Shown here: in pieces, positions 58,734 through 62,853 of the stretch
Layout: the number at the start of each line of letters is the position of its first letter
Numbering within the stretch: position 1 is the stretch's first letter
From: an uncultured bacterium
Lineage (GTDB): Bacteria > Verrucomicrobiota > Lentisphaeria > Victivallales > UBA1829
Assembly: GCA_902780135.1 (NCBI GenBank)
Contig: CACZEK010000016.1
Location: 1 to 64,000 of the forward strand
Length of the DNA: 64,000 nt
Reading direction: 5' to 3'
The notes under the pieces: model-generated
The model's database searches: none
What the model was told of the DNA's origin: nothing
What the model saw: only the letters and a program-made list of their open reading frames with translations
Program-made: the position numbers and the translations under genes

Positions 58734-59765
58734 TCAGATGGTGTAGAGCCAGCCGTGCGTGTCTTCCAGTTCGCCTCTCTGGATGCCGGTCAGGCGGTCG
58801 TAGAGCTTCTGGGAGACGGGGCCGCATTCGTGGCCGTATTCGATGACCTTGCCGTGGATGGTGACGGAGGAGATCGGGGTGATGACGACGGCGGTGCCGC
58901 AGGCGTCGACTTCGGCGAAGGTCGGGAGTTCCTCTTCGGCGACGATCGGGCGCTTCTCGACGGTGATGCCGAGGTCGCGCGCGACCTGCATGAGGGACAT
59001 GTTGGTCACGCTCGGGAGGATGGACGGGGAGTCGCTGGTGACGTACTTGCCGTCCTTCGTGATGGCGAGGAAGTTGCTGGTGCCGAATTCGTCGATGTAC
59101 TTGTGCTCGCGCGGGTCGAGGAAGAGCGGAATCGGGAATCCCGCCTTCTTGGCGAGCTTGGCGGGCATGAGGGACGCGCCGTAGTTGCCGGCGACCTTGA
59201 ACTGGCCCATGCCCTTCGGGGCGGCGCGGTCGAAGTCCTCGATGACGAGCGCGGGAACGCCCTTCAGTCCTTCCTTGTAGTACGCGCCGACGGGCATGAC
59301 CATGATGAGGAAGTCGTATTCCGTGGCGGGGGAGACGCCGATCTGCGGGCCGGTGCCGATGAAGAGCGGACGGATGTACATGGAGCCGCCGGATTCGCAG
59401 GGCGGGACGTAGTCGATGTTGTCGAGCACGACGCGATGGATCGCCTCGAGGTACATCTCCTCGGGGATCTCGGGGTGGAGCAGCTGGTGGCCGGTGCGGT
59501 TCATGCGCTTGATGTTTTCCCAGGGGCGGAAGACGCGGACCTTGCCGTCCTTGCAGCGGAACGCCTTCATGCCTTCGAAGCACGCCTGGCCGTAGTGGAG
59601 GCAGGTGGCGGCGATGCTCATGGAGATGTGCGGATCGGTCCTGAGTTCGCCTTTGTCCCAGGCGCCGTCTTTCCAGTGGAAGGCGATGTGGGAGCGGGTG
59701 GGCATGAAACCGAAAGAGAGAGCCGACCAGTCGATGTCGGTGCGGATGGGACGGGGATAGTCCAT
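58734..59765 (-). CDS. ilvE: Branched-chain amino acid aminotransferase
   Basis: A 343-residue fold-type IV PLP enzyme, for the last step of Val, Leu and Ile synthesis. Class II BCAT features: LHYGQACFEGMKAFR, NIKRMNRTGHQLLHP, IRPLFIGTGP, the Schiff-base Lys in FKVAGNYGASL, EFGTSNFLAI and GTAVVITPISSV. The start is placed at ATG 59765, because GGAG lies 6 nt before it; an ATG four codons earlier contains that site. No other ilv genes are nearby. Confidence 0.93.
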   Translation of the reverse strand: MDYPRPIRTDIDWSALSFGFMPTRSHIAFHWKDGAWDKGELRTDPHISMSIAATCLHYGQACFEGMKAFRCKDGKVRVFRPWENIKRMNRTGHQLLHPEIPEEMYLEAIHRVVLDNIDYVPPCESGGSMYIRPLFIGTGPQIGVSPATEYDFLIMVMPVGAYYKEGLKGVPALVIEDFDRAAPKGMGQFKVAGNYGASLMPAKLAKKAGFPIPLFLDPREHKYIDEFGTSNFLAITKDGKYVTSDSPSILPSVTNMSLMQVARDLGITVEKRPIVAEEELPTFAEVDACGTAVVITPISSVTIHGKVIEYGHECGPVSQKLYDRLTGIQRGELEDTHGWLYTI

Positions 59766-59878
59766 AAAAAACTCCATTTGTTAGACAGTGCGGCGGCAAA
59801 AAAGCCGTCAAAGAGAAATGAACATAAAGAAATTTACACGTTTTTCCGCGATAGTCAATGTTTTTTTCGGAATTCATA

Positions 59879-60720: not shown

Positions 60721-61656
60721 ATGACGCCACAGCAGGAAGACATCGCATCCGCCGGAACGGAAAACGCCGGCGTAGTCCGGGATGCTGCCGTTCCCGCGCC
60801 CGAACTCACGGCGGAATCAGCGCCTGAGTCCGAGCCCGTTTCTCCCGTCTCCGCGCCCCGGACGACGTTCAAGATGGAGCTGTCGTTCGACGGCACGGCG
60901 TACCACGGCTGGCAGCGCCAGCCGAACGGGATCACGGTGCAGGAAGTCGTCGAGGAGAAGCTGTACCGCCTCTTCGGCGAACGCGAGCACATCCGGATCC
61001 AGGGCAGCAGCCGCACGGACGCCGGAGTCCACGCGCTCGGCATGGTGTGTTCCTTCTCCGCGCCGCCGTCGCCGTATATCCCGGACTGGAAGCTCAAGAA
61101 GGCGATGAACCGCCTGCTGCCGGACGACATCCGCATCCGCACCGCGGAGGTCGCGAAGGACGGCTTCAACGCCCGGTTCGACGCGCTCGCCAAGTCCTAT
61201 GTCTACGTGGTCAATACGGGCGACATCAACCCGTTCAGCGGGCGGTATTCGTGGCACATGGAGGACATGACGGAGATCGGCGCCCTGCGCGAGGCGGTCA
61301 AGCACGTCGAGGGGCGGCACGATTTCTCCACATTCACGGTCGAACGCGGCAAGATCGACGATCCGGTCCGCACGATCCTCCGCAGCGAGATCGTCACGTT
61401 CGGCCCGCTCGTCTGCATGTATTTTCTCGGCACGGGATTCCTCTACAAGATGGTCCGCAGCATGGTCGGCGCGCTGATGTTCGTGGGGCGCGGCCGCATG
61501 ACCCCGGACGAGTTCCGCGGCATCCTGCTGGCGTGCGACCGCGCGAAATGCAAGGACACCGCGCCCGCCCGCGGGCTTTTCCTCAAACAGGTCTTTTACG
61601 AACCCGACGCCTGGCTGGACGACCTGCCGTCGCGTCCGCCGTTCTGGATCGCGTGA
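60721..61656 (+). CDS. truA: tRNA pseudouridine(38-40) synthase
   Basis: A 311-residue TruA. Motifs: FKMELSFDGTAYHGWQRQPN, the catalytic Asp (near 100) in GSSRTDAGVHALG, and C-terminal FLYKMVRSMVGALMFVGRGR. About 50 residues of Ala/Pro/Glu-rich sequence precede the conserved core; no internal ATG or obvious ribosome-binding site replaces the annotated start, so it looks like a true extension. Confidence 0.93.
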   Translation: MTPQQEDIASAGTENAGVVRDAAVPAPELTAESAPESEPVSPVSAPRTTFKMELSFDGTAYHGWQRQPNGITVQEVVEEKLYRLFGEREHIRIQGSSRTDAGVHALGMVCSFSAPPSPYIPDWKLKKAMNRLLPDDIRIRTAEVAKDGFNARFDALAKSYVYVVNTGDINPFSGRYSWHMEDMTEIGALREAVKHVEGRHDFSTFTVERGKIDDPVRTILRSEIVTFGPLVCMYFLGTGFLYKMVRSMVGALMFVGRGRMTPDEFRGILLACDRAKCKDTAPARGLFLKQVFYEPDAWLDDLPSRPPFWIA

Positions 61657-61710
61657 TCCGGGCTTCTCCCATCCGCTTAACCGCACCCTTCAGCATAAGG
61701 AAAACATGGT

Positions 61711-62853
61711 ATGAACACAGCAGAAACCACTTCCGAAACCGGCGCCGCCGAACGCGGTGCGCCTATCCTTGCCGCGCGCAGGGTCAGCATGCAGGACCGT
61801 TACAGCATTGAACGCCTCCGCGACCTTACCCTTGAGGTCTACAAAGGCGACGTCATCGCCCTGATCGGCGCGTCCGAGCCCGGCAAACGCCTTCTGCTCC
61901 GCTGCCTGGACCTTCTGGACCGGCCGGAAGGCGGGGACGTGGAAGTCAACGGGGAGCCTGTGCAGTGGCGTCACGTCGGCGCGGAGCGCGCCCGCAGAGC
62001 CATCGGGATCGCGTTCTCCCGCGAGTCGCTTTTCCCCAACCTGACCGCCATGGAGAACATGATGCTGGCGCCCCTCGACGGTACGGAGGAGGAGGAAGAT
62101 TCGATCCGGGACCATGCGAAATCCCTGCTGAAGTTCGCCGGGCTTTCCGGCATAGAGGATACGATGCCCGCCAATCTGACCGCGGGACAGCGGAGGCGCC
62201 TTGCCGTTGTGCGGGCTTTGATGCTCCGGCCGCAGGTCCTGCTGGTCGAGGATCCCGGCGCAAAACTGCTCCCGGAGGAGCGGTCCGAGGTGTACGCCCT
62301 GATCCGCGCCGTGACGAAAACCGGCATGACCGTCGTGTTTTCGACGCGCGACCTGGATTTCGTGCGCGAGATCGCCACGCGGGTGGTGTTCATGGCGGAC
62401 GGCATGATCCGGGAAGACGGCCCGGTCGAAGCGGTGCTGGACCATCCGCAGTATGAACGGACCCAGTCGTTCGTGTCGAAGAACACCGGATTCTACTGCG
62501 AGATCAACGCCCATGCCTTCGACAGCTTTGAGCTGGAGGGCAGGATCGAAGTGTTCGCCGCGAAGAAGCTGATCCCCCACGAAAGACGGCGCGTCCTGTG
62601 CGACGCCCTGAAGATCGTGCTTGTCAGGATGATCTTCCCCCACGTCTCCAAAGTCGTCCTGACGCTTGATGTGAAGCCGGAGACCGGAGAGGTGGCCGCG
62701 GTCGTGCATTATCCGGGAAGCGGATTCGATCCGCTGACCCAGTGCAGCGGGGCGGACGAGGATGCCGCGAAGGCGGCGCTTCTCGCCTGCGTCAAGTCCG
62801 CGAAATACCGTCTGCCCGTATCCGGGAAAAATGAGTTCGTCCTGGTCTTCTGA
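61711..62853 (+). CDS. Catalytically degenerate ABC ATPase-like protein with C-terminal extension
   Basis: A 380-residue protein. Residues about 20-260 align along their length with polar amino-acid importer ATPases of the GlnQ type, but the active-site motifs are changed: Walker A GPSGSGKS to GASEPGKR, Q-loop Gln to Ser (IAFSRESLFPNLT), signature LSGGQ to LTAGQ, Walker B DEP to EDP, D-loop SALD to AKLL, H-loop His to Arg (FSTRDLDF). ATP hydrolysis is unlikely. The last roughly 115 residues are not ABC-like; VVHYPGSGFDPL faintly resembles the G box of GHKL ATPases. AAGGA precedes the ATG. The frame is intact, so the protein is probably made. No permease gene is adjacent. Confidence 0.8.
   Translation: MNTAETTSETGAAERGAPILAARRVSMQDRYSIERLRDLTLEVYKGDVIALIGASEPGKRLLLRCLDLLDRPEGGDVEVNGEPVQWRHVGAERARRAIGIAFSRESLFPNLTAMENMMLAPLDGTEEEEDSIRDHAKSLLKFAGLSGIEDTMPANLTAGQRRRLAVVRALMLRPQVLLVEDPGAKLLPEERSEVYALIRAVTKTGMTVVFSTRDLDFVREIATRVVFMADGMIREDGPVEAVLDHPQYERTQSFVSKNTGFYCEINAHAFDSFELEGRIEVFAAKKLIPHERRRVLCDALKIVLVRMIFPHVSKVVLTLDVKPETGEVAAVVHYPGSGFDPLTQCSGADEDAAKAALLACVKSAKYRLPVSGKNEFVLVF

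Follow-up and report, generated by a model that had tools for sequence, protein, structure and literature searches.

Importers of the GlnPQ type combine tandem substrate-binding domains fused to a permease with a separate GlnQ ATPase (PMC8025302). In the MlaFB complex, the STAS protein MlaB controls the ABC nucleotide-binding domain (NBD) MlaF, which carries a functional C-terminal tail (PMC7367683), and the degenerate nucleotide-binding sites of type I ABC exporters have been reviewed (PMC7756269). The locus analyzed here lies in a 64,000-nucleotide stretch of DNA (the window) and encodes an NBD closest to GlnQ/ArtP, with a probable partner made of tandem SBP_bac_3 domains fused to BPD_transp_1. 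It differs from GlnPQ in that the NBD motifs are destroyed, the carboxylate-binding Arg is lost in all three complete substrate-binding domains (SBPs), an extra RsbW-like tail is present, and the ATPase and permease genes are unlinked. MlaFB is a precedent for control of an NBD by the STAS family and for a C-terminal NBD tail, but MlaF is an active ATPase whose tail is short, and it lacks an RsbW-like domain. Type I ABC exporters likewise show NBD catalytic residues lost in a conserved manner; in those with a degenerate site one of the two sites stays active, whereas here the sole candidate NBD gene is affected, which in a homodimer would mean both sites. The tail shares its fold, and a chain of profile matches, with the anti-sigma kinases RsbW, SpoIIAB and UsfX but is without the N-box E-x3-N, the G1 Asp and the glycine-rich G2, and is fused to an ABC domain. 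The components are of known kinds, a GlnPQ-like importer (PMC8025302) and an RsbW domain; a limited search of open-access literature returned no description of their combination, of such a concerted importer conversion or of an ancestor wired to partner switching.

With a probability of about 0.55, the two genes are read here as an entire ABC importer that was turned, on a single ancestral branch, into a conserved and probably non-transporting receptor or scaffold. A pseudoenzyme is usually one protein; in this case two importer genes that are not linked appear to have jointly lost the residues that define their functions, yet both are maintained. This offers a case in which to test how a nutrient transporter may become a sensor or scaffold, and which of its surfaces persist once catalysis is lost.

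The gene, its neighbors and its orthologues

Positions 61711–62853 of the forward strand (the strand of all features below unless stated) hold a single intact frame with an ATG start, assigned by ORF, Pfam and orthologues to a 380 aa pseudo-ABC ATPase with an RsbW-like tail. An AAGGA ribosome-binding site is visible in the sequence 9 nt upstream of the ATG (61697–61701), in agreement with a sequence-only reading of the window that had described an intact frame with a good ribosome-binding site. The flanking genes encode an OmpA-family lipoprotein, TruA (60721–61656, ending 54 bp before the pseudo-ATPase gene) and a nitroreductase. No permease or binding-protein gene was linked to the locus between truA and the nitroreductase gene, so that the absence of an adjacent transporter gene, also reported in that reading, holds locally but does not extend to the genome, where a probable permease partner lies elsewhere. 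In the window, as in 10/10 extended orthologue loci, truA lies directly 5' of the pseudo-ATPase gene; it is probably context only, with an unrelated function. An aminotransferase-like gene (58734–59777, reverse strand) followed by the OmpA-family lipoprotein gene and truA was an order common to the orthologous loci inspected.

The family search covered 36 genomes, of which 13, the window's own included, belong to its genus. Of the 12 other genomes of the genus, 11 have a full-length orthologue (61–72% aa identity), and none was found in the remaining family genomes searched; those related loci that carry public names derive from rumen MAGs. The sole same-genus genome without an orthologue, G020, has other genes in place of the pseudo-ATPase in its truA region, and shows the same aminotransferase-like/OmpA-family lipoprotein/truA order.

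Frames were open in all 12 species and the altered motifs were common to all 12 orthologues, with a median Nei–Gojobori dN/dS of 0.233 at dS ~0.7. By part, dN/dS over the 12 sequences was 0.185 for the NBD and 0.303 for the tail, indicating purifying selection on both, compared with 0.144 for truA in the same genus as control; the higher values allow some relaxation. Since the orthologues share both the altered motifs and the purifying selection, the protein is a conserved pseudo-ATPase and not a product of decay, as the sequence-only reading had suspected from the retained fold. Chance and random decay of one copy are ruled out by the 12-species conservation and a dN/dS of ~0.23, and no orthologue with intact motifs appeared in that comparison.

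The altered ATPase domain

Residues 36–182 matched ABC_tran in Pfam (E 1e-19, above cut-off). The closest NCBIfam model was GlnQ (E 9e-52), with a score of 175.8 bits that is below the equivalog cut-off of 379; GlnQ, TcyN and ArtP were the nearest curated models, and among solved structures 4yms, an amino-acid ABC ATPase, came closest. In the full-length AlphaFold2 model the NBD showed pLDDT values mostly ~90 and aligned with 4yms_A at a TM score of 0.94 by target length (Foldseek), bearing out the earlier proposal that a GlnQ-type fold is kept.

To compare motifs, the 12 orthologues were set beside 22 fused relatives that keep intact motifs and 15 plain GlnQ proteins. The degenerate Walker A (GASEPGKR, residues 53–60; 61867–61890) extends to GASEPGKRL in the window where GPSGSGKST is expected, and reads G(A/S/P)SE(P/S/D)(A/G/T)KRL across the orthologues in place of GPSGTGKST, with S55, E56, K59 and R60 invariant in all 12. 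In the former Q-loop (FSRE, residues 102–105; 62014–62025), FQ has become FS in the window and the orthologues alike, and the segment is invariant in the 12, compared with FQxF in intact relatives. The signature, located by alignment (LTAGQRRR, residues 156–163; 62176–62199), has LTAGQ for LSGGQ, or L(S/T)xGQ among orthologues. The aligned Walker B and D-loop (LLVEDPGAKLLP, residues 177–188; 62239–62274) changed from FDEPTSALDPE to VEDPGAKLLPE in the window, and from DEPTSALDP to E(D/E/A)P(G/A)xxLxP in the orthologues. At the H-loop (62347–62349) TH is replaced by TR, and Arg213, the residue at the His position, is R, N or C among orthologues.

The sequence-only reading had held every catalytic motif to be lost. 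All five are indeed altered, but the loss is not complete: S55, K59 (the lysine of Walker A) and G159 and Q160 of the signature were kept in 12/12 orthologues, and the Walker B acids were swapped (D to E and E to D) rather than removed in 10/12. Among key residues only K59 and G159-Q160 are retained. In all 12 orthologues Arg replaces the Mg-binding Ser/Thr of Walker A, Ser replaces the Q-loop Gln, and the H-loop His is absent. With the Mg-binding residue replaced and the Q-loop and H-loop residues gone, the sequences argue for a pseudo-ATPase without ATP hydrolysis; with K59 kept and the Walker B acids only exchanged, weak ATP binding and, less probably, slow hydrolysis could persist.

Of the 134 positions invariant over the 12 orthologues, 131 fall in the NBD and tail, and 105 in the NBD. 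They include the replacement residues E56, R60, S103, R104 and E105, which indicates that the altered site is itself constrained, and the catalytic-acid and H-loop positions (181 and 213) vary. A constrained altered site with variable positions 181 and 213 is the pattern of a repurposed protein and not of an eroding one.

ABC NBDs dock the coupling helix of the permease at the segment just after the Q-loop. This segment (residues 106–121; 62026–62073) still resembles that of intact relatives, with the consensus SLFPNLSVMGNMMLAP versus NLFPHLTVLENITLAP.

The C-terminal tail and its intact relatives

Residues 259–380 (62485–62850) form a tail of 122 residues, assigned from profiles and a tail-only model to a degenerate RsbW/SpoIIAB-type domain (HATPase_c_2, GHKL). 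A direct Pfam search of the tail gave no match, and HATPase_c_2 was reached only at E 0.02 in the tail of one intact relative; homology was therefore shown by a chain of profiles together with the fold. In profile–profile alignments the 12 tails matched those of the fused relatives (99.2%, E 1.4e-18), and these in turn matched RsbW-like proteins (99.0%, E 2.8e-17), with reversed controls <1%; the 12 tails compared with RsbW directly gave a weak match (25%). In the full-length model the tail had a pLDDT of ~50 and the fold search gave ABC NBDs alone among the matches listed. Tail-only prediction from four sequences gave a model with a pLDDT of 84.6, the best of five, three of which scored 53–58. 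The top Foldseek matches of this model were SpoIIAB, UsfX and RsbW (best E 5.9e-5, SpoIIAB), and in VIA-align it matched UsfX 8ih8 with Z 13.1 (113 residues aligned, 3.1 Å), RsbW 6m37 with Z 11.8 and SpoIIAB with Z 11.4, compared with ~7 for ordinary histidine kinases. The earlier guess of a GHKL-like tail is supported by both the profile chain and the predicted fold, on which the tail is a degenerate domain of the anti-sigma-kinase GHKL type.

The stretch VVHYPGSGFDPL, previously likened to a GHKL G box, aligns with the G1-box region of RsbW; the former G1-box region (YPGSGFDPL, residues 334–342; 62710–62736) has Y334, G336, D340, P341 and L342 invariant. In the former N-box helix (residues 294–313; 62590–62649) the E-x3-N motif, EELxxN in intact relatives, is absent. 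The N-box E-x3-N, the G1 Asp (DxG) and the G2 glycines were all absent from 12/12 orthologue tails, and none of the 10 extended orthologue loci has a STAS gene beside the pseudo-ATPase gene. The tail has probably lost nucleotide binding, and the protein would then join two folds that no longer hydrolyze ATP, as first suggested from the sequence.

Three intact relatives supplied the tail queries for searches of 137 genomes of the order and a phylum sample of 388, which found GlnQ-type ATPases fused to an RsbW-like tail across many genera of the order and phylum. The 22 aligned fused relatives have intact NBD motifs and the same tail type. A homologue of the SBP-permease fusion was directly upstream in eight of the nine neighborhoods called for upstream genes, the match in the ninth (L124) being fragmentary, and STAS, RsbW and PP2C genes were often downstream; one intact operon contained, by Pfam, three SBP_bac_3 domains with BPD_transp_1, along with STAS, HATPase_c_2 and SpoIIE. 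Operons with the order SBP-permease, tailed ATPase, STAS, usually RsbW, and PP2C were seen at L117:403-7038 and L122:4869-11762, and also at L118, L120, L121 and L126; the PP2C protein of L118 itself matches an RsbW profile. Such operons, present in Victivallales and elsewhere in the phylum, apparently encode an amino-acid importer wired to a partner-switching module. An ATPase with an anti-sigma-kinase-like tail beside STAS, RsbW and PP2C suggests a direct coupling of transport to partner-switching control in these relatives.

The E-x3-N of the N-box was kept in 15/24 fusion relatives, most of which are also without the G1 Asp. An adjacent STAS gene was found for 11/15 fusions with the N-box (one of the 15 at a contig end) versus 0/9 without it (Fisher p 6e-4, uncorrected for kinship). 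This co-occurrence suggests that the tail originally served to bind the STAS protein, by analogy with the binding of MlaB to MlaF (PMC7367683) but with a domain dedicated to it. Fused ATPases with intact NBD motifs, the N-box lost and no STAS gene nearby were also seen (L119:8027-9133 in G020, L125:7521-8603 in G118, L098 and L100); their tail decay is apparently independent, as they form a lineage separate from the pseudo-ATPase clade in the tree.

Fusions of the L117/L122 type share with the window protein the order of its two domains and a homologous permease partner, but differ in keeping all ABC motifs, in mostly keeping the N-box and in being linked to the permease gene. The pseudo-ATPase clade has a long stem (1.83 changes per column) and the tree leaves its joining point unfixed; its descent from the fusion type is supported by the shared tail. 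Judged from these sequences, an intact ABC ATPase with an RsbW-like tail is the likely ancestral form, surviving in the family and phylum.

The probable permease partner and readings of the pair

At E <= 1e-40, the 12 genomes that carry the pseudo-ATPase gave no second GlnQ-type ATPase, while G020, which is without it, gave three such matches. Each of the 12 has exactly one HEQRo-type permease, except G022 (69% complete), and this permease sits inside a 1000–1100 aa SBP-permease fusion with three complete SBP_bac_3 domains and BPD_transp_1. In the window's own genome the fusion is encoded on contig C1 (L212:8087-11140). The neighborhood of the fusion contained no ATPase gene, and RsbW, STAS or PP2C genes were found beside neither the fusion nor the pseudo-ATPase. 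The fusion emerges as the candidate partner from the genomic context of intact relatives, its single-copy status and the rate correlation given below. A nearby ABC/SBP pair on contig C10 was rejected, being a MacB-like system that adjoins an unrelated SBP protein.

The genus fusions form their own clade, with a stem of 2.3 changes per column compared with 1.83 for the pseudo-ATPase. In HisJ-type proteins the Arg of T-x-E-R binds the carboxylate of the ligand. None of the three complete binding domains retains this Arg in 11/11 genus fusions, yet 5/5 intact relatives have it, as do two dual-SBP paralogues encoded in the same genome. In the permease, 41/106 columns conserved in intact relatives were switched to another conserved residue, and the EAA helix that docks the NBD was largely kept (consensus EAALALGFSRYQAFRKVVLPQ in intact relatives versus DAARALCLRKFTFFRKVILPQ in genus fusions). 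The fusion (1000 aa) was intact in 11 genomes with a dN/dS of 0.24. Classical amino-acid transport by the pair is presumably absent.

Pairwise protein distances of the pseudo-ATPase and the unlinked fusion were correlated with r 0.947 over 10 related genomes, whose pairs are not independent, and the partial r was 0.915 given the distance of truA, a slow control with few changes. Such co-divergence could instead reflect equal relaxation of both genes; taken with the sequence comparisons, it supports the view that the two products may still work as one complex.

The pair would derive from a polar-amino-acid ABC importer in which an RsbW-like regulatory domain was fused to the cytoplasmic subunit. 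On the branch from which most members of this rumen Victivallales genus descend, the operon would have split, leaving the ATPase gene beside truA, the SBP-permease fusion elsewhere and STAS, RsbW and PP2C beside neither. On the same branch, the NBD would have lost residues for ATP hydrolysis, the tail those for nucleotide binding and the three SBPs those for carboxylate binding, after which both proteins were conserved again. Assembly was most likely retained through the kept coupling helix and the NBD docking surface, and the resulting non-transporting membrane complex may answer a new ligand or interaction and pass this on by way of the dead NBD and its tail; alternatively it may act as a scaffold. 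That the whole is a "pseudo-transporter" receptor derived from an undescribed importer class wired to an RsbU/V/W partner-switching module is put forward more tentatively, at slightly less than even odds.

The persistence of three binding domains and a permease fold, together with K59, G159-Q160 and the ED of Walker B in 10/12 orthologues, could also mean that the pair is still a transporter, in which the unusual residues (ED for DE, R for H) or ATP binding alone drive slow cycling for a substrate that has no alpha-carboxylate. This is judged unlikely, given the change of the Walker A Ser/Thr to Arg, the change of the Q-loop Gln to Ser and the missing H-loop His, each in 12/12; with these residues replaced and position 181 occupied by D, E or A, hydrolysis does not look selected. 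A somewhat lower probability is given to a cytosolic regulator that does without a permease and acts through its tail, for example on a STAS protein or sigma factor, the permease fusion evolving independently. The anti-sigma-kinase fold, the N-box/STAS adjacency of intact relatives (11/15 versus 0/9, p 6e-4 with kinship uncorrected) and the lack of a permease beside the gene fit this account, but the pseudo-ATPase tail has lost its N-box and has no STAS gene near, the STAS protein encoded elsewhere in the genome (contig C9) was not found in 3/12 genomes, the permease-docking segment after the Q-loop is still like that of intact relatives, and the gene co-diverges with the permease.

Less probable again is a slow relict, in which the transporter has been useless since the genus ancestor and both genes are weakly selected remnants with no present function. 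Rates of the pseudo-ATPase and partner do exceed those of truA (dN/dS 0.23–0.27 versus 0.14), catalytic positions such as 181 and 213 vary, and G020 is without the pseudo-ATPase. Against this, frames are open in 12/12 species at a median dS of ~0.7, the NBD has a dN/dS of 0.185 and 105 invariant residues, among them the replacements S103, R104, E105 and R60, and the 1000 aa partner remains intact in 11 genomes with its dN/dS of 0.24. Conversion of the importer into a maintained receptor or scaffold remains the preferred reading.

Other SBP_bac_3 proteins were also seen. In the window's own genome (C5), L159:694-2178 and L173:682-2178 are stand-alone, lipoprotein-like proteins with two SBP_bac_3 domains each and the T-x-E-R Arg kept. 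Several further SBP_bac_3 matches occur in frames of ~500 aa across the genus, and others in frames of ~1400 aa in several same-genus genomes (for example G000:C13:96825-97727), which are possibly large receptor proteins.
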